Translations under genes and position numbers: made by a program | Shown: piece by piece, positions 27,851-37,112 of the stretch | Position numbering within the stretch: position 1 is the first letter of the stretch | How the letters are laid out: the number at the start of each line of letters is the position of its first letter | Source: Petrotoga mexicana DSM 14811 | Lineage (GTDB): Bacteria; Thermotogota; Thermotogae; Petrotogales; Petrotogaceae | Length of the DNA: 64,000 bases | NCBI RefSeq assembly: GCF_002895565.1 | Contig: NZ_AZRN01000010.1 | Coordinates: 1 to 64,000 of the forward strand | Direction: 5' to 3' | Notes under the pieces: generated by a model | What the model was told of the DNA's origin: nothing | The model's database searches: none | Seen by the model: the letters and a program-made list of their open reading frames with translations, nothing else

Positions 27851-27872
27851 GAAATCAAAAGTGAATAATAAA

Positions 27873-27960
27873 TAGCCAGGGGAGCTGAAAGGCTGAGAGG
27901 ATGCATAACAGACATCGACCCTGACTACCTGATCTGGATAATACCAGCGAAGGGAGGCTA
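27873..27960 (+). ncRNA. TPP riboswitch (THI element) aptamer
   Basis: The conserved THI-box segments are present in order: GGGGAGC, CTGAGAGGATG, ACCCTGACTACCTGATCTGG and ATAATACCAGCGAAGGGA. P1 is closed by TAGCC (27873-27877) with GGCTA (27956-27960). It senses thiamine pyrophosphate. Every downstream gene up to thiP is thiamine-related except one methyltransferase, in agreement with this call. Confidence 0.97.
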
Positions 27961-27978
27961 AAAATATGTATTCAATTT

Positions 27979-28017: not shown

Positions 28018-28040
28018 ATTTTGCATAACAGGAGGTGAGT

Positions 28041-28829
28041 ATTATAAAACTAGGATTAACGATAGCCGGTTCTGATTCAGGTGGAGGTGCTGGTATACAA
28101 GCAGATATTAAAACTTTTTCTGCCCATGGCGTTTTTGGAATGAGTGTTATTACTTCTGTAACCGCTCAAAACACGATGGGTGTTTTGGGCATAGAAGATT
28201 TAACTCCTAAAATGGTATTGTTGCAAATGAAGGCTGTTTTTGAAGATCTCTTTCCCGATGCAGTGAAAATAGGAATGGTTTCCAATGAAAAGATAATCAA
28301 AACTATAGCAAATGGATTAAGAGAGTACAAGCCTAAAAACATTGTTTTGGACCCAGTAATGGTTTCCAAAAGTGGAGTTCATTTGTTAAAAGAGGACGCT
28401 ATCAATGCTTTAAAAAGTGAACTCATTCCGTTGAGCTTGGTAGTAACTCCAAACTTGATGGAAGCCGAAGTACTAACGGGGATAAAAGTTGGTTCTGTAA
28501 AAGATATGAGAAACGCCGCAAAGAAAATTGTGGAGCTTGGAGCTCAAAGTGTGGTAGTAAAGGGAGGACATTTGATAGAAGACGCCATCGATGTATATTA
28601 TGATGGAAAGGATTTTTTTGAAGTTTCTTCCGAAAGGATACCAACCAAAAATACTCATGGCACAGGCTGCACTTTCTCTTCCGCAATTGCTGCTAACTTA
28701 GCTTTAGGATATGAACTTTTTGATTCTATTAAAAGAGCTAAAGAATACATCACAGGTGCAATTAGAAATTCACTATCTATAGGTCATGGGGTAGGACCAA
28801 CAAATCATTTCTGGAGGTGGAATTTGTGA
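28041..28829 (+). CDS. thiD: Hydroxymethylpyrimidine (phosphate) kinase
   Basis: ThiD phosphorylates HMP and HMP-P to HMP-PP. The ~262-residue protein has the ribokinase-fold ThiD motifs [17 protein letters not shown] near residue 10, PDAVKIGM near 75 and the catalytic [12 protein letters not shown] near 210. The in-frame GTG at 28035 is buried in a perfect AGGAGGTGA ribosome binding site (28030-28038), so translation more likely begins at ATT 28041 or ATA 28044; 28041 is given. First gene of the TPP-controlled operon. Confidence 0.92.
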
Positions 28830-29536
28830 GAAAGAGTGATGGACAAGTGGTTGAAAGAAAACTAGGTAATATTCAAGCTTTTAACGAAGGAGCGGTAGAC
28901 TTTGAAACTTGGTTCAAAAATAATGAAAAATTGTTCTATTCTGAGCTTAATGCCTTAAAAAAAATGGTGATAAATCCAGAAAAATGTATAAGTATCGGCA
29001 TAGGGGATGGTTTGTTTGCTGAAAAACTGGGTATAAAAATTGGAGTAGAACCATCAAAAAGCATGGCGGAACTGGCAAGAAAAAGGGGTATAAAGGTCAT
29101 AGAAGCAAAAGCTGAGGATCTGCCTTTTGAAGACTCAAGTTGTACACAACTTTTGTTAGGGACCATTCTTTGCTATGTTGAGAATCAAGAAAAAGCAATT
29201 GAGGAAGCATATAGAGTTTTAAAAAAGGATGGAGAAGTAATTGTCTCCATTTTGCCAGCGGAAGGGCCTTTTGCTTTATTGTATCGAGTAGCTAAGAATG
29301 AAGGTTATTATGACGAAAAAATATCCCCAAAAATCCCTTACCCGTTAAAATTTATTGAAAAGGCAAATTGGATTGCCAGTGATGAATTAATAGATCTAAT
29401 GGAAAAAGTTGGTTTTAGGGATATCCAATCTGTACAAACATTAATTAATAACCCAAAATACTGTGATGAAGAGATTGAAGAAGCTATTCCAGGTTATAAG
29501 AAAGGTAGCTATATAGTATTTAAAGGGGTTAAATGA
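28826..29536 (+). CDS. SAM-dependent methyltransferase (class I)
   Basis: The 236-residue protein has a Rossmann methyltransferase core: SIGIGDGLFAEKLG near residue 55 (a modified motif I), GVEPSKSMAELARKRG (motif II), AKAEDLPFEDSS and EEAYRVLKKDGEVIVSI. The substrate is unknown. GTG at 28826 overlaps the thiD stop and has GGAGGTGG at 28813-28820; the upstream GTG at 28817 is inside that site. Its place inside a thiamine operon is odd; a role in precursor salvage is only a guess. Confidence 0.82.
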   Translation: MRKSDGQVVERKLGNIQAFNEGAVDFETWFKNNEKLFYSELNALKKMVINPEKCISIGIGDGLFAEKLGIKIGVEPSKSMAELARKRGIKVIEAKAEDLPFEDSSCTQLLLGTILCYVENQEKAIEEAYRVLKKDGEVIVSILPAEGPFALLYRVAKNEGYYDEKISPKIPYPLKFIEKANWIASDELIDLMEKVGFRDIQSVQTLINNPKYCDEEIEEAIPGYKKGSYIVFKGVK

Positions 29537-29537
29537 A

Positions 29538-30194
29538 ATGGATTTTTCTCATATTAAAGATCACACAAAAAAAGAATTAGAGAAATTAATTAACCATCCT
29601 TTTATGGAAGAACTCTATACTGGAGAATTATCTTTTGAGAAATTCGTATTCTTTTTAAAACAAGATTTTCATTATCTAGAGCAATCAATGAAAAATATGG
29701 GGATTTTGATAGCAAAAGCGGAAGATCTTACCGCCAGGAGGATGTTAATAAATATTTTATATAACGAATCAGAAATAGAATTTAAAAATTATTTAAATTT
29801 GCTTGATTTCTTGAATATAGATCCCTCAACATTAAAAAGTATAGATCTTACTAGAGCGAATATTGCTTATAGTAACTATCTTATTTCTCAAAGTGCACAA
29901 AAATCTTTTGTAGTTGGTATGGCAGCCCTTTTGCCTTGTTATTATAGTTACTTAGAAATATACCAATATCACAAAGACAAGCTTAGCAATAATGAAAATG
30001 ATATATATTTAAAATGGGCATCGACTTATGATGAAGCAAAATACAAGAAGTTAGTTGGAGATCTAATTTATATTTTTGAATTATATCTAAATTCAGAAAA
30101 AGAAGAAGAAATAACCCGGGCATATAAAAACTCTCTTAAATTCGAATACGAATTTCTTGAAGACGCCTATTATCAAAAGATTTGGAAGCTTTAG
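29538..30194 (+). CDS. tenA: TenA-family thiaminase II / aminopyrimidine salvage protein
   Basis: The 218-residue helical protein matches TenA: HPFMEELYTGELSFEKFVFFLKQD near residue 15, the dyad-type NES near 75, and ALLPCYYSYLEI near 130 with the likely catalytic Cys. TenA hydrolyses thiamine breakdown products such as aminomethyl-HMP to HMP, feeding ThiD. The ATG follows AAAGGGG. The gene's last 24 bp lie inside the upstream copy of a 64-bp direct repeat. Confidence 0.9.
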   Translation: MDFSHIKDHTKKELEKLINHPFMEELYTGELSFEKFVFFLKQDFHYLEQSMKNMGILIAKAEDLTARRMLINILYNESEIEFKNYLNLLDFLNIDPSTLKSIDLTRANIAYSNYLISQSAQKSFVVGMAALLPCYYSYLEIYQYHKDKLSNNENDIYLKWASTYDEAKYKKLVGDLIYIFELYLNSEKEEEITRAYKNSLKFEYEFLEDAYYQKIWKL

Positions 30195-30234
30195 AGAGAT
30201 GAAAAATATGAATGTGAAGTTCCATGGAATAACT
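30171..30234 (+). repeat. 64-bp direct repeat, left copy
   Basis: This copy covers the end of tenA and the beginning of an abortive thiE reading frame. It matches 31923-31986 with two differences. The thiE ribosome binding site is GGAAG here and GGAGG in the right copy, and the thiE sequence stops matching after the repeat. Confidence 0.85.
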
Positions 30235-30352
30235 ACTGAAAAATTTATACGAACTACTGCTTTAAGATACATTATGATAATCTTGAAATTCTATGAAAGT
30301 CAAAGCTGTATAAAGAAAAACAAAACATTTATTGAGATAGGGAAAAGATAAA
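30199..30352 (+). pseudogene. Truncated thiE start (remnant) and junction sequence
   Basis: ATGAAAAATATGAATGTGAA at 30199 is the same start as intact thiE at 31951, but similarity is lost after about 12 codons. The frame runs on for ~50 codons of unrelated sequence to 30351. It is taken as a broken 5' copy of thiE left by insertion of the thiM1 cassette. Confidence 0.6.
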
Positions 30353-31189
30353 ATGATTAATAAAAAGGATATTCAAAACCAAATAATTCAGGCGGTTGAA
30401 ATAGTAAGACGGGAAAATCCTATAGTGGGATCAATTACCAACACTGTAACAATTAATTTTGTGGCTAATGCTCAACTTGCCGTCGGTGGTTCCGCTGCTA
30501 TGGTTTATTTACCTGATGAAGGTGAATTTTTGGCAAAAGCCAGTGAAGCTACTTATATAAACTTTGGGACATTTATACCACTTTATGAGCAAACTTTACC
30601 TCGTGTATCAAAAGCTTTGCATGAAGCACGAAAGCCATGGGTACTTGATCCGGTAGCAGTGGGTATCGGTTCCCTTAGAACTCAGCTTTTGCTGGAATTA
30701 AAAAAGTATAAACCTACTGTAATTAGAGGGAACGCTTCGGAAATTCTAGCATTGGCTGGCTTATGGGAATTAGAAGGTGGTACAGCTCTATCCACTGTTC
30801 GCGGTGTTGACTCAACGGATTCCGTAACTTCTGCTAAGAATGCGGCTGTTGCGCTGGCAAAGTGTACAGGAGGAGCAGTGGCCGTATCAGGCAAAACGGA
30901 TTTAATAACCGATGGTTCCGTCATAGCCTTTTCTCATGGAGGGTCACATTTTATGGGGAAAATTACTGGGGCGGGCTGTTCGTTGGGTGGAGTCGTTGCG
31001 GTCTATGCAACGGCCGCTTCACCATTTATTGCGGCGCTTACTGCTAGTGCAGTTTATAATTTAGCGGGAACTCGTGCTGAAAAAAAGGTGGACGGTCCCG
31101 GTAGTTTTCAAATTCAGTTTCTTGATGAACTGTATAAAGCGAACGCGGGGGACATTGCTAACAATCCATTTGAAATTGAGGAGGTTTAA
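30353..31189 (+). CDS. thiM: Hydroxyethylthiazole kinase, copy 1 (cassette-borne)
   Basis: ThiM phosphorylates 4-methyl-5-hydroxyethylthiazole. The 278-residue protein has the family motifs SITNTVTINFVANAQLAVGG near residue 25, WVLDPVAVG near 95, VIRGNASEILAL near 125 and the catalytic ITGAGCSLGG near 208. It differs clearly from the second ThiM at 32.6 kb. It is one of two intact genes in the segment between the 64-bp direct repeats and looks acquired: GC-richer, with CCG/GCG-rich codons. Only a weak ribosome binding site precedes it. Confidence 0.93.
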   Translation: MINKKDIQNQIIQAVEIVRRENPIVGSITNTVTINFVANAQLAVGGSAAMVYLPDEGEFLAKASEATYINFGTFIPLYEQTLPRVSKALHEARKPWVLDPVAVGIGSLRTQLLLELKKYKPTVIRGNASEILALAGLWELEGGTALSTVRGVDSTDSVTSAKNAAVALAKCTGGAVAVSGKTDLITDGSVIAFSHGGSHFMGKITGAGCSLGGVVAVYATAASPFIAALTASAVYNLAGTRAEKKVDGPGSFQIQFLDELYKANAGDIANNPFEIEEV

Positions 31190-31192
31190 TCT

Positions 31193-31519
31193 ATGAATAC
31201 ATTAATTGCTGTTGCCATAGCACCTATTGGTATAGGTGATGAGCTTGCACCTAAAGTAGCTGAAGTTATAAAAGTAATTCGTGATTCGGGTTTACCTTAT
31301 CACACAACTTCTATGTTTACAGAGATAGAAGGTGAGTGGGATGAAGTAATGAAAGTCGTTAAAGATGCAACATTTGTACTTGCTAACGAGGGTATCCGTA
31401 CCGAAGTTGTTCTAAAAGCTGACATACGTCCTGGGTTTAAAAATATGATGAATGCAAAAGTCAATAAAATCAACGATATTTTGGACGGAAAAAATAATGA
31501 GCATCAGAAAAACATTTGA
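31193..31519 (+). CDS. Thiamine-binding protein (MTH1187/YkoF-like family)
   Basis: The 108-residue protein matches the small MTH1187-type family: IAVAIAPIGIGDELAPKVAEVIKVI at the start, YHTTSMFTEIEGEWDEVMKVV in the middle. Members bind thiamine or HMP-like ligands and often sit next to thiamine transport or salvage genes, as here. It follows thiM copy 1 by 3 bp with GGAGG before the ATG, and belongs to the inserted cassette. Confidence 0.82.
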   Translation: MNTLIAVAIAPIGIGDELAPKVAEVIKVIRDSGLPYHTTSMFTEIEGEWDEVMKVVKDATFVLANEGIRTEVVLKADIRPGFKNMMNAKVNKINDILDGKNNEHQKNI

Positions 31520-31922
31520 TATATCGGAATACTTAGTTGTGGGCCCTGATAGAAGTTTGTCGGGAATACTTGGGAGAAGATTCAATTATTGGCTTATCGG
31601 CATGAACAAATGAGTTATTTGAATATATCAGAACTGCGGATGTATCTCAGATTGATTATTTTGATGCCGGTCTATAATTAGCTCAAACCGGGGTTCATGG
31701 TTTTTTCGTGGTCACCGCTGTATCTGAAGCTGATGATCCAAAATCGGCGGCCACTAATCTGGTAAAAGCCTGGAACTTATATTCTACAGTGGGCCATAAA
31801 GTTTTAAGTGAAAAACAGATTAAGATATGATTAAAGGAGTAATTTTTTGCTTTAGACAGAGTCAGACTGGACGCTATGCCGTCTAAGATGCAGAGAATCA
31901 TTTTTAACCTTATTGTTCCGCT
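31520..31922 (+). pseudogene. Gene remnants at the end of the cassette
   Basis: The 400-bp stretch has no intact ORF but shows coding-like pieces. A frame at 31633-31830 reads EYIRTADVSQIDYFDAG, stop, then LAQTGVHGFFVVTAVSEADD and ends at a TGA. Another at 31853-31922 reads ALDRVRLDAMPSKMQRIIF and runs in frame into thiE. Several stops and frame breaks are present. I do not recognise the ancestral proteins. It is taken as decayed cargo of the inserted segment. Confidence 0.6.
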
Positions 31923-31986
31923 TATCAAAAGATTTGGAGGCTTTAGAGAGATGAAAAATATGAATGTGAAGTTCTATGGAATAACT
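31923..31986 (+). repeat. 64-bp direct repeat, right copy
   Basis: Matches 30171-30234 with two differences. It contains the thiE ribosome binding site (GGAGG, 31936-31940) and first codons. Confidence 0.85.
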
Positions 31987-32613
31987 GACAGATCGTATCT
32001 AAAGGATCAGAATTTGATTGACGCAATAGAAAAAGCAATAAAAGGGGGCATAACTGTACTTCAACTCAGAGAAAAAGAGTTAAATTCAAGGGATTTTTAC
32101 TATCAAGCATTGAAGGTTAAAGAAGTAACGGATCATTATAGTATACCGTTGATAGTAAATGATAGAGTGGACATTGCTTTAGCTGTAGGAGCTGACGGTG
32201 TACACGTTGGGCAAGAGGATCTTCCTACAAAAATAGCTCGAAAGATCATAGGAAAAGAAAAAATATTAGGAGTATCGGTTGAAAATGTTGAACAGGCTAT
32301 CCAGGCACAAAAGGATGGAGCTGATTATTTGGGAGTAGGTCCGGTGTTCCCATCTCCTACTAAACCAGAAGCGAAAACAATTAGCATCGCTGAAGTTAAA
32401 AAAATCAAGGAGTCTGTCAACATTCCTGTAGTAGCGATTGGGGGAATAACTGCTGAAAATTTATATGATCTCATGAGAGAAACAAATGTGGATGGCGTTG
32501 CTGTTATATCGGCACTTTTTTCAGGTGATGTTGAAGAAAATGCCATACGTATACGCAAGGTAATTGAAAAAGTTGAAATAGTTAACGAAAGGAGCCAAAA
32601 AGATGGTAAATAA
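31951..32613 (+). CDS. thiE: Thiamine-phosphate synthase
   Basis: ThiE couples HMP-PP with thiazole phosphate to give thiamine phosphate. The 220-residue TIM-barrel protein shows VKFYGITDRS, TVLQLREKEL near residue 38, IVNDRVDIALAVGADGVHVGQEDLP near 70 and GVGPVFPSPTKP near 125. VVAIGGI is near 165. The start is ATG 31951; an in-frame extension upstream to 31876 comes from cassette remnants and is rejected. It was originally adjacent to tenA before the insertion. Confidence 0.94.
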   Translation: MKNMNVKFYGITDRSYLKDQNLIDAIEKAIKGGITVLQLREKELNSRDFYYQALKVKEVTDHYSIPLIVNDRVDIALAVGADGVHVGQEDLPTKIARKIIGKEKILGVSVENVEQAIQAQKDGADYLGVGPVFPSPTKPEAKTISIAEVKKIKESVNIPVVAIGGITAENLYDLMRETNVDGVAVISALFSGDVEENAIRIRKVIEKVEIVNERSQKDGK

Positions 32614-33400
32614 CATTTTAGATACAGTAAAAGTGAAAAAACCTCTGATACATCATATTACAAATATGGTAACAATAAATGACTGTGCCAATGTAACTTT
32701 AGCGGTAGGAGGGCTTCCAGTGATGGCCCATGCAATAGAGGAAGTCGAAGAGATGGTATCTAATTCCCAAGCGCTTGTACTTAATATTGGTACGTTAACT
32801 TTAGAACAAGTAAAGGCCATGATAAAAGCTGGGAAGAAAGCCAATTCACTTAATATTCCAGTCATCTTTGATCCTGTTGGTGCAGGAGCAACAAAAATAA
32901 GAACAGATGCTTCTAAAAAAATATTAGATGAAGTACAAATATCCGTTATAAAAGGGAACAAAGCAGAGATTGGTATTCTAACGGGTTCTGGTGGGAAAAT
33001 CAGAGGTGTAGAAGCGGAAAGTAACGATGAAAATATAGAGTCATATAAAAACTTTGCAAAAGAGTATCATTGTATAGTTGCAGCTTCAGGTGTTACAGAT
33101 ATTGTTAGTGATGGTAATACAGTGTATAAAGTTGATAATGGGCATTCTATGTTAGGGACTATCTCAGGTACAGGTTGCATGTTAACGTCTATTATTGCTA
33201 ATTTTTGTGCTGTGGAAAGTAATCATTTACAGGCAACCGTTTCAGCAATGGTTGCATTTGGACTAGCTGGTGAATTAGCTGCTTCACGTTCAGAGGTGAA
33301 AGGTCCTGCTTCTTTTAAAGAAGCGTTCTTTGATGAAATATATAACTTAACAGACGAAAAATTAAGTAGGGGTATAAAGGTACGTGGAGAAGTTAACTAA
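32603..33400 (+). CDS. thiM: Hydroxyethylthiazole kinase, copy 2
   Basis: The 265-residue ThiM has IHHITNMVTINDCANVTLAVGG near residue 15, VIFDPVGAGAT near 90, VIKGNKAEIGIL near 113 and the catalytic ISGTGCMLTS near 188. Its ATG overlaps the thiE end by 11 bp with AAAGGAG upstream. Because it is coupled to thiE and AT-rich like its neighbours, it is probably the resident copy. Confidence 0.94.
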   Translation: MVNNILDTVKVKKPLIHHITNMVTINDCANVTLAVGGLPVMAHAIEEVEEMVSNSQALVLNIGTLTLEQVKAMIKAGKKANSLNIPVIFDPVGAGATKIRTDASKKILDEVQISVIKGNKAEIGILTGSGGKIRGVEAESNDENIESYKNFAKEYHCIVAASGVTDIVSDGNTVYKVDNGHSMLGTISGTGCMLTSIIANFCAVESNHLQATVSAMVAFGLAGELAASRSEVKGPASFKEAFFDEIYNLTDEKLSRGIKVRGEVN

Positions 33401-33427: not shown

Positions 33428-34405
33428 GTGAAGAAGTTTTTAGCGATGTTGGGTGTTATAGTTGTTTTGTTATCTTTTGCTTTTTCTGAGGAATTGACTG
33501 TCTATATTTACGAAAGTCTCAGTTGGATTGAAGAAGGAACGATTCAAAAGTTTGAAAAGATGAACGACTGCGATGTAAAAGTGGTAAAATTGGGTGATGC
33601 AGGTAACGTTCTCACACGGCTAGTTTTGGAAAAGAAAAATCCTCGAGCGGATGTAGTCATTGGGCTTGATCAATCGCTTGCTGCAAAAGCTATTGAAGAG
33701 GATTTATTGATCCCTTACAAACCAAAAAATATTGAAAATGTTAGAGACAAAGCGTTGTTATTTGATTCCCAATATAATGTAATTCCTTACGACTATGGAG
33801 CTATAGCCATTATTTACGATCCAGAAAAGATACAAGATGAATTAGAATCTTTTGAAGATCTAACTAAATATAAAAATTCGTTGATAATACAAGATCCAAG
33901 AGCATCAAGCACTGGTCAAGCTTTTTTACTATGGACAATAGCCGTGTATGAAAATGAGTGGAAAGACTTTTGGGAAAGACTTATGCCTGCAATATTAACA
34001 GTAAGTCCTAGCTGGGATGATTCCTTTGCAAAATTTGAAATTGGTGAGGCACCCATGATGGTCAGCTATGCAACTGATAGTGCATACTCACAATATTACT
34101 ATGGATCTAGTAAGTACAAGGTTTTTATCCCCAAAGAAGGTGCTTATGTTCAGATAGAAGGTGCCGGTATCGTTAAAGGTACTGATAATTTAGATTTAGC
34201 TCAGAAATTCATAGAATTTATGTTGACAGAAGATTTTCAAAAAGAAATACCTTTAAAACAATGGATGTTCCCAGTAATTGATGTTGAACTTCCTGAGGTT
34301 TACCAATATGCAGTGGTTCCCGAAAAAATTCTGACTATTCCAGCCCAAGAAATTTCAAACAATTTAGAAAGATGGCTGAAAGAATGGGAGGCTCTATTAT
34401 ACTGA
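33428..34405 (+). CDS. thiB: Thiamine ABC transporter substrate-binding protein
   Basis: The 325-residue exported protein has a signal peptide (residues 1-20) and the ThiB/TbpA pattern: LTVYIYESLSWIEEG near residue 23, FEKMNDCDVKVVKLGDAG, PYDYGAIAIIYDP near 120 and IIQDPRASSTGQAFLLW near 155. It captures thiamine outside the inner membrane for the ThiP permease. The GTG start has AGAGGTGAG upstream. Regulation by the TPP riboswitch is implied by the operon. Confidence 0.92.
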   Translation: MKKFLAMLGVIVVLLSFAFSEELTVYIYESLSWIEEGTIQKFEKMNDCDVKVVKLGDAGNVLTRLVLEKKNPRADVVIGLDQSLAAKAIEEDLLIPYKPKNIENVRDKALLFDSQYNVIPYDYGAIAIIYDPEKIQDELESFEDLTKYKNSLIIQDPRASSTGQAFLLWTIAVYENEWKDFWERLMPAILTVSPSWDDSFAKFEIGEAPMMVSYATDSAYSQYYYGSSKYKVFIPKEGAYVQIEGAGIVKGTDNLDLAQKFIEFMLTEDFQKEIPLKQWMFPVIDVELPEVYQYAVVPEKILTIPAQEISNNLERWLKEWEALLY

Positions 34406-34409
34406 ACTT

Positions 34410-35948
34410 ATGAACAATAGAAGAAGCAAGAATTTACTGTTTATTTTATTTTTGTGTTTGTGGTTAATACCTTTTTCTTTTTTATTTAAAGATTTTTTTC
34501 GTTTAGAAGGTTTAGCGAATTTCTTGGATCCGCGTACGTGGCGGATCCTTGGTTTTACTTTTTATCAAGCTATTCTTTCATCTGTGTTGTCATTGGTTAT
34601 AACTTTAATTCCAGCGTATTTTGCTTCAAGAAATGAAGGGATCATATCTAAATTATTAGATAATACCATTTTTATTCCTTTCTTTTTCCCACCCGTCTCG
34701 GCAGTTATGGCTTTCACTCTTGTTTATTCTTCAGTTGGTATTCTTTCAAAATTGGGTTTTAGTTTAGATATTATGTACACTTTGAAAGCAATAATATTAG
34801 CCCATGTCTTTTATAACTCTCCCATATTTGTTCGTTACATATCGGAAGCTCTTAGAAGAGTACCTGCAAGTTTTATAGAAACAGCCAGTATGGAAGGAGC
34901 GGGGAAGTTTAAAACTTTTATAAACATAGAATTACCTTTGATAATTCCGTCCATTTCTAGGGCTTTATTTTTAGTATTTACATATAACTTCACGAGTTTC
35001 GCGATTGTTTTAAGTTTAGGTGGGGTAAAATATTCAACTTTGGAAGTGGCTATTTCTACAACATTGAGAAGTACACTGGATTTTCCCAAGGCTTTGTCTT
35101 ACGCATTGATTCAACTCTTAATCCTTACGATTCTTAATATCTTTATATCAAAATTTGAACCTATCTCTTTTGAATATGAACCATTATCTCAAAAGAAATC
35201 TGGATATTTAAGTAGGACACTATCCATCTTTTACTTGATCTTTGAATATTCAATTGTTTTGGTAGGCATTGCAGCTTCTTTTTTTGATTTTATAAATATG
35301 AAATTTGATATATCTTCATTTCTGAATTTATTTTCTAAAGAATTGAATCGTATATATCCAGTGGTTAGATCAATCTTAAATTCCTTTTTAGTCTCGACAG
35401 TATCAGCTTCCTTTGCCGTAATAACAGCATATTTTCTATTGAAAAATTACAGTAAACTCATAAATGTGAGCGTAATGGCCACTTTGGGTATATCATCAGC
35501 ATTTTTAGGTATGGCTCTACTTTATTTAAATATATTGTTTGATATTCCCTTCGTATTGTTATTGATCCTGGGATATTTCTTAATAACCATACCTATCGCG
35601 TATTCATTTTTGTTCCAACCGATACGCGGATTTGACAATAAAATAGTTGAAGCCGCAAAGATAGACGGGGCAAACAAACTAATCATCTTCCTCAAAGTAG
35701 AGTTACCCCTTCTGCTTTCTTCGTTTACAAGTGCCTTTCTTCAGATATTTGCAATAATTTTTGGTGAATTTACCATCAGTTATACTATGCAAGTAAGGGA
35801 TTACTTTCCCCTTGTCAGCGTGGTTAACTATTCTCTTTCCTCAGGAAGATTATACCAAGAAGCAAATGCTTTAAGCGGGTTGAATATAATTTTAATCTTC
35901 TTTATCTTTTATATAAGCAATAAGTTTGCAAAAAAATCAGGAATTTAA
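34410..35948 (+). CDS. thiP: Thiamine ABC transporter permease
   Basis: The 512-residue protein is a tandem fusion of two permease domains, each with an EAA loop: SFIETASMEGAGKFKTFINIELP near residue 153 and KIVEAAKIDGANKLIIFLKVELP near 412. About 12 membrane spans are predicted. This is the ThiP layout. No ThiQ-type ATPase gene follows; the operon ends here and the last 4 bp overlap the converging gene. The ribosome binding site (GGGAGG) is rather far from the ATG, so coupling with thiB is likely. Confidence 0.9.
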   Translation: MNNRRSKNLLFILFLCLWLIPFSFLFKDFFRLEGLANFLDPRTWRILGFTFYQAILSSVLSLVITLIPAYFASRNEGIISKLLDNTIFIPFFFPPVSAVMAFTLVYSSVGILSKLGFSLDIMYTLKAIILAHVFYNSPIFVRYISEALRRVPASFIETASMEGAGKFKTFINIELPLIIPSISRALFLVFTYNFTSFAIVLSLGGVKYSTLEVAISTTLRSTLDFPKALSYALIQLLILTILNIFISKFEPISFEYEPLSQKKSGYLSRTLSIFYLIFEYSIVLVGIAASFFDFINMKFDISSFLNLFSKELNRIYPVVRSILNSFLVSTVSASFAVITAYFLLKNYSKLINVSVMATLGISSAFLGMALLYLNILFDIPFVLLLILGYFLITIPIAYSFLFQPIRGFDNKIVEAAKIDGANKLIIFLKVELPLLLSSFTSAFLQIFAIIFGEFTISYTMQVRDYFPLVSVVNYSLSSGRLYQEANALSGLNIILIFFIFYISNKFAKKSGI

Positions 35949-36806: not shown

Positions 36807-36848
36807 GTTCCTAATGGGTGCGGTGGGCAGCGGGGCGAAGGGGCGCTA
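36807..36848 (+). repeat. G-rich leader repeat, copy G (upstream of the vapBC-encapsulin genes)
   Basis: A single terminal unit ending GGGGCGCTA. Four G-runs at 36816-36818, 36825-36827, 36832-36835 and 36840-36843 with loops of 6, 4 and 4 bases. It ends 51 bp before the antitoxin start, followed by AAGAGTTTCTAGAAAT, a version of the common tail. Confidence 0.86.
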
Positions 36849-36872
36849 TATAAAGAGTTTCTAGAAATAGTC

Positions 36873-36891
36873 AATCAAAAATTAAAGGAGG
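36873..36891 (+). repeat. Short leader duplication, left copy
   Basis: AATCAAAAATTAAAGGAGG before the antitoxin gene recurs, with one extra A, at 37512-37531 before the ferritin-like gene. The two copies flank the toxin-antitoxin pair. Confidence 0.6.
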
Positions 36892-36899
36892 TAAAGATC

Positions 36900-37112
36900 A
36901 TGCATGAAAAAGAAATCGAGGAAAAAATTCAAAAGCTTCCCGAAAATTTGAGGCGAGAGGTTTTAGATTATTTGGACTTTTTACTAGGTAAATATCAAGG
37001 CAGAGAAAATTCAAGAGGTAAATTCAAGTTCGACTGGGAAGGAGGCCTATCAGAGATAAGAGAGGAATTCACTTCTGTTGAACTGCAACACAAATCTTTG
37101 GAGTGGAGATAA
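36900..37112 (+). CDS. VapB-like antitoxin (DUF2281 family)
   Basis: The 70-residue protein begins EIEEKIQKLPENLRREVLDYLDFLLGKYQ, the usual DUF2281 N-terminal helix pair, followed by a flexible polar tail (FDWEGGLSEIREEF) likely to bind the toxin. Such proteins pair with PIN-domain toxins. Its stop overlaps the toxin's ATG by one base (TAATG). AAAGGAGG precedes the ATG. Confidence 0.85.
   Translation: MHEKEIEEKIQKLPENLRREVLDYLDFLLGKYQGRENSRGKFKFDWEGGLSEIREEFTSVELQHKSLEWR

Follow-up and report, generated by a model that had tools for sequence, protein, structure and literature searches.

A piece of a Bacillota-type thiamine operon lies between the tenA and thiE genes of a resident thiamine salvage operon in the window (the whole 64,000-nucleotide stretch of DNA analysed here; all features below are on the + strand). 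The inserted segment (30235–31921, 1,687 bp, missing in G002) is flanked by a 65-bp direct repeat and carries a second thiM gene (thiM2), a gene of the Thiamine_BP family, a dead thiE, and the start of a HAD-hydrolase gene. We have very little doubt about the repeat, the empty junction in a relative, the donor affinity, the dead thiE or the HAD-gene start; the best explanation as a whole, including the way the segment was joined, we hold with moderate confidence, and within it we infer the joining mechanism, the co-expression and the function. Horizontal gene transfer is clear here, if ordinary: mosaic operons are already known, this one is well preserved, and it leaves knowledge of thiamine metabolism unchanged. 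Its value is that an operon is caught turning mosaic, with the empty junction, the duplication of the landing site, the donor operon and the dead donor gene all visible, and that it provides a usable worked example of the way in which foreign genes reach a riboswitch-controlled operon with no mobile element involved.

The resident thiamine salvage operon

The operon is headed by a TPP riboswitch (27868–27972; Rfam RF00059, 70.1 bits compared to a gathering score of 54.3) that is present in all six genomes of the genus. It is followed by thiD (28035–28829; PF08543, E=6.5e-100; 98% DNA identity to G002), a SAM methyltransferase-like gene (28817–29536; PF08241, E=1.1e-15), tenA (29538–30194; PF03070, E=2.7e-38), and, to the right of the insert, an intact thiE (31951–32613; PF02581, E=2.3e-68; 96% identity to G002) and thiM1 (32603–33400; PF02110, E=6.5e-83; 96% identity to G002 over 257 columns). 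The methyltransferase-like gene is intact in the window and is cut by a deletion to a 3′ remnant in G002. Downstream of thiM1 are the substrate-binding protein and permease genes of an ABC transporter (33428–35948; the binding protein matches PF13343, E=6e-24), which in sister species follow immediately after the TPP riboswitch; the transporter is likely to be involved in uptake of thiamine or a precursor. None of the six genomes of the genus yielded a ThiC, which was recovered from 13 of 14 controls, and the pyrimidine therefore depends on salvage or uptake.

The direct repeat and the empty junction

The two copies of the repeat (30170–30234 and 31922–31986) are identical at 63 of 65 positions, with a start-to-start spacing of 1,752 nucleotides; the original prediction was correct as to the repeat and its two differences, and one base short in giving its length as 64 bp. 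Chance is excluded as its source, because the other direct repeats in a 10-kb search are all 29 nt or shorter, and any beyond 20 nt reach only about 70–80% identity. In the whole 2.13-Mb genome the 65-mer has just these two copies. The repeat search and comparison with G002 bear out the proposed division of the copies: the left one consists of the last tenA codons and an abortive thiE start (ATG at 30199, stop at 30349–30351), and the right one of an orphan tenA end and the start of the intact resident thiE (ATG at 31951). The abortive frame (30199–30351, 50 aa, from the ORF list and the sequence) remains open through 118 bp of AT-rich DNA, and its stop is 1 nt upstream of the thiM2 ATG, a spacing that makes translational coupling a possible candidate.

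In G002, a genome of the same genus (C33), tenA and thiE are joined directly across a single 65-bp copy with no insert, so the two genes were originally contiguous, as predicted. The G002 copy matches the right copy except at position 6, where G002 has G and both window copies have A; at the two sites that set the window copies apart, it is the left copy that differs from the other two. One of these changes turns GGAGG into GGAAG, and the pair fits relaxed constraint on a copy that has ceased to be the start of a gene. An assembly artefact is scarcely credible as the origin of this arrangement: the genome is a draft of 36 contigs, which could accommodate one, but there are two differences between the repeat copies, genome contamination is 0.02%, and the insert is unlike every donor-type locus compared (best 89%).

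The resident thiD, tenA, thiE and thiM1 genes differ between G000 and G002 with dS values of 0.04–0.09, and if G002 never had the insert, then the insertion is younger than this divergence. The insertion may accordingly be young on this proviso, with the heavy decay of the donor thiE partly older than the transfer, and the intact state of thiM2 and the Thiamine_BP gene would then prove little. The single copy in G002 could instead have been regained by recombination between the repeats, the insert being old in the operon and lost from G002 exactly. Direct repeats of 65 bp can remove a segment in this way, the single copy is compatible with it, and the tract of resident operon is common to both lineages at raised identity; however, we find this alternative distinctly unlikely, since it explains nothing otherwise unexplained, alters the date of the insertion and not its origin, and leaves contiguity of tenA and thiE as the older state, the right copy still having its orphan tenA end.

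Content of the insert

Matches to donor-type loci cover the insert except for its leftmost 101 bp and its last ~30 bp. The 101-bp left end (30235–30335) is AT-rich (23.8% GC), and neither donor upstream regions nor the resident thiE nor the rest of the genome match it convincingly. We asked whether this end is what is left of a thiE copy that was once fuller and lost the part between two GGAATAACT repeats (at 31978 and 32443), and dropped the idea because about 10–25% of shuffles (32/300 and 72/300) score as well as the 20-nt resemblance behind it. The imported hydroxyethylthiazole kinase gene thiM2 (30353–31189, 278 aa; PF02110, E=3.6e-61) is intact, as is the Thiamine_BP-family gene (31193–31519, 108 aa; PF01910, E=6.2e-25), the sole copy found in the genome. 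These are the only Pfam matches among the intact genes of the insert, and they confirm both the second thiM and the thiamine-binding protein gene that had been proposed from the sequence.

The ~400 bp of decayed coding sequence in the original prediction is real, and we identify it as the donor's own thiE and the start of its HAD-hydrolase gene. Matches to the intact thiE genes of donor-type loci place the dead thiE at 31498–31810, where codons 1–20, about 105–144 and about 196–238 are left; there are two deletions of about 260 and 147 bp (~407 bp in total), a frame change, and in-frame stops. To its right is the 5′ end of the HAD-hydrolase gene (~65 bp, 31827–31890), truncated, and frameshifted by an extra T relative to the donor-type loci, as seen in alignment with L015, L007, L016 and L017; this piece has no protein-level match, as expected for so short a stretch. 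What had been missed is that, with the decayed stretch being the donor's own thiE, a thiE-bearing fragment came to lie precisely where the resident thiE begins. The description of the segment as GC-richer applies to thiM2 (43.2%, z=+2.9 compared to 49 window genes; codon-use z=-3.0) and mildly to the dead thiE (38.8%), but not to the Thiamine_BP gene, which at 35.5% GC (z=+0.4) and with a codon-use z of +0.1 is no outlier.

Donor-type operons and the origin of the insert

Thirteen loci elsewhere encode a relative of thiM2, 12 of them at a protein identity of at least 78%. They are mostly from Bacillota, together with metagenome-assembled genomes (MAGs) labelled Caldiserica, Spirochaetaceae and Sumerlaeota, for which binning errors are possible. 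The usual gene order is thiM – Thiamine_BP – thiE – (HAD) – thiD – thiC, with the HAD-hydrolase gene following thiE in several operons and the Thiamine_BP gene missing from some loci; these genes were identified from translated ORFs and family knowledge, Pfam having been applied to thiM and Thiamine_BP in the window copies only. The insert has the gene order and sequence of the Bacillota operon (e.g. L007, L012 and L017), with which it is colinear, and is one contiguous piece of such an operon, although limited to thiM, the Thiamine_BP gene, the dead thiE and the HAD start. The best match among the donor-type loci is a Mahella MAG, with 89% DNA identity from 30336 to 31523 (1,188 bp), and thiM2 itself shares 91% protein and 89% DNA identity with its counterpart there. 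Behind its Thiamine_BP gene the Mahella MAG has metE-like sequence, not thiE, and past 31523 the insert matches the thiE of other donor-type loci and then the HAD start. The exact donor is not among the 13 loci, the closest of which is at 89% DNA identity, and no plasmid carrier of thiM2 was found at 60% identity or above.

In a ThiM tree, ThiM2 is placed with the Bacillota-type set, and resident ThiM1, together with that of G002, is set apart by a long, supported branch; the pairing of ThiM2 with Mahella is weakly supported (83/21) despite their 91% identity. Only 34% identity is shared by thiM2 and thiM1, which with the long supported branch rules out an origin of the two as recent paralogues. 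The phylogeny upholds a foreign origin, and this result and the lack of both insert and second repeat copy in G002 favor the original prediction.

Mosaic operons, reportedly described by Omelchenko and colleagues in 2003 (cited in PMC2259305), are said to arise from horizontal transfer into resident operons. Here too a foreign gene of the same pathway stands within a resident operon beside its resident counterpart, the inserted genes group with a distant lineage, and a relative (G002) has the uninterrupted operon. The present case differs in that the foreign copy was added and the resident gene not replaced, and in the 65-bp duplication and donor debris left behind.

Values of dN/dS relative to Mahella are 0.11 for thiM2 and 0.18 for the Thiamine_BP gene, and mostly mirror history outside of the present host. 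The branch counts for thiM2 in the window lineage (23 synonymous and 11 non-synonymous) blend the history of the donor with that of the recipient, and are no proof that the gene is used in its new host. The best solved DeoC relative (3r12, a Thermotoga protein), together with the size and GC of the genome, points to Thermotogota and perhaps Petrotoga as the host. If the host is a Petrotoga, an independent precedent for transfer involving Mahella and Petrotoga, both found in oil wells, is a 727-bp sequence reported as identical in Mahella australiensis, Petrotoga mobilis and a methanogen (PMC8270642).

Joining of the insert

We favor a template switch or end joining, for which a donor fragment would suffice. 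A linear piece of a Bacillota-type operon (thiM – Thiamine_BP – thiE – HAD start) would have entered the cell and been joined illegitimately at the tenA/thiE junction of the TPP-riboswitch-controlled operon. At thiE codon 12, replication or repair would have switched from the native template to the donor piece, and then back to the native template at a point 65 bp upstream; staggered broken ends, once filled in, would give the same appearance. The 65-bp duplication would be a by-product, by virtue of which tenA and thiE both stay whole, and the imported thiE may have died before or after the transfer.

The duplication had been taken to point to a circular or homologous donor, a step that our results do not support: the 65 bp have no DNA similarity in the donor-type loci compared, and a template switch or staggered-end joining explains the anatomy as well. 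A Campbell-type single crossover with a circular molecule containing the donor genes and 65 bp of tenA/thiE homology would yield precisely such direct repeats flanking an insert, and single crossovers in Escherichia coli with partly deleted circular plasmids gave duplications of 109–950 bp (PMC3240628). However, because none of the 13 donor-type loci has DNA similarity to the 65-bp repeat (the true donor is not among them), an earlier event joining recipient sequence to donor DNA would be required, and plasmid backbone is absent from the insert; we regard such a crossover as unlikely, if a serious contender. The system in that study, homology-facilitated illegitimate recombination, resembles the present one in the illegitimate integration of foreign DNA and the duplication of a target stretch on single-crossover integration, but no donor–target homology was found here and 65 bp is shorter than any duplication in that range. 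A literature search found nothing on the thiM–Thiamine_BP operon or on long target duplications.

Transposition had been discounted in the original prediction, and we agree, finding no transposition signature in the ORF list, in Pfam, or in an inverted-repeat search. A transposon, integron cassette or att-site island with the 65 bp as att-like repeats might be suggested by a segment flanked by direct repeats and by related thiM–Thiamine_BP segments in scattered phyla. It is nonetheless very improbable, and was rejected on the Pfam, 65-mer and inverted-repeat searches: there is no recombinase, transposase or integrase gene, there are no terminal inverted repeats at the ends of the insert, and the 65-mer is confined to this locus in the genome. 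The donor-type loci stand in varied contexts without such 65-bp repeats, and the segment ends within the HAD gene.

Expression and placement

The imported genes are on the same strand as the operon and tightly spaced, and transcription of thiM2 and the Thiamine_BP gene probably proceeds as part of the host operon, controlled by its TPP riboswitch. On their predicted functions, the host would gain another hydroxyethylthiazole kinase besides its own, together with a thiamine-binding protein. The operon occupies ~7 kb of the 2.13 Mb, giving a blind-chance landing of ~0.3%, a post hoc figure, the case having been picked because of this feature. The placement needs no steering mechanism, being explained by selection for expression under the riboswitch. 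Because the thiE fragment hit the resident thiE start exactly, without alignable DNA homology, one might speculate that foreign pathway genes are steered into the matching operon by residual micro-homology of orthologous operons or by strong selection for riboswitch control, an idea that we consider quite improbable.

Probable loss and exchange of the operon within the genus

Comparison of window positions 28029–33390 with G001, G004 and G005 (L022, L024 and L023) shows that in these three sister species the riboswitch runs almost directly into the transporter genes, with the thiD–thiM1 block deleted. The deletion scar is 34–38 bp of thiM1 (window 33129–33166), with breakpoints that agree within a few bases. 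Identity between G000 and G002 is 88–93% up to 28,000, leaps from 89% to 98% where the operon begins with thiD, stays at about 95% to 35,000, and is then back to 90%. Because three species share the scar, and the G000–G002 identity of the block is above that of its flanks, our reading of these alignments is that the salvage genes probably disappeared in a single loss and that the operon-bearing allele has since then probably been exchanged by homologous recombination, a history of the resident operon that the original prediction missed. To the right of the transporter genes, at about 36808–36916, is a short dispersed repeat family, a stretch of ~30–100 bp of which dozens of partial copies lie throughout the genome and in those of sister species.
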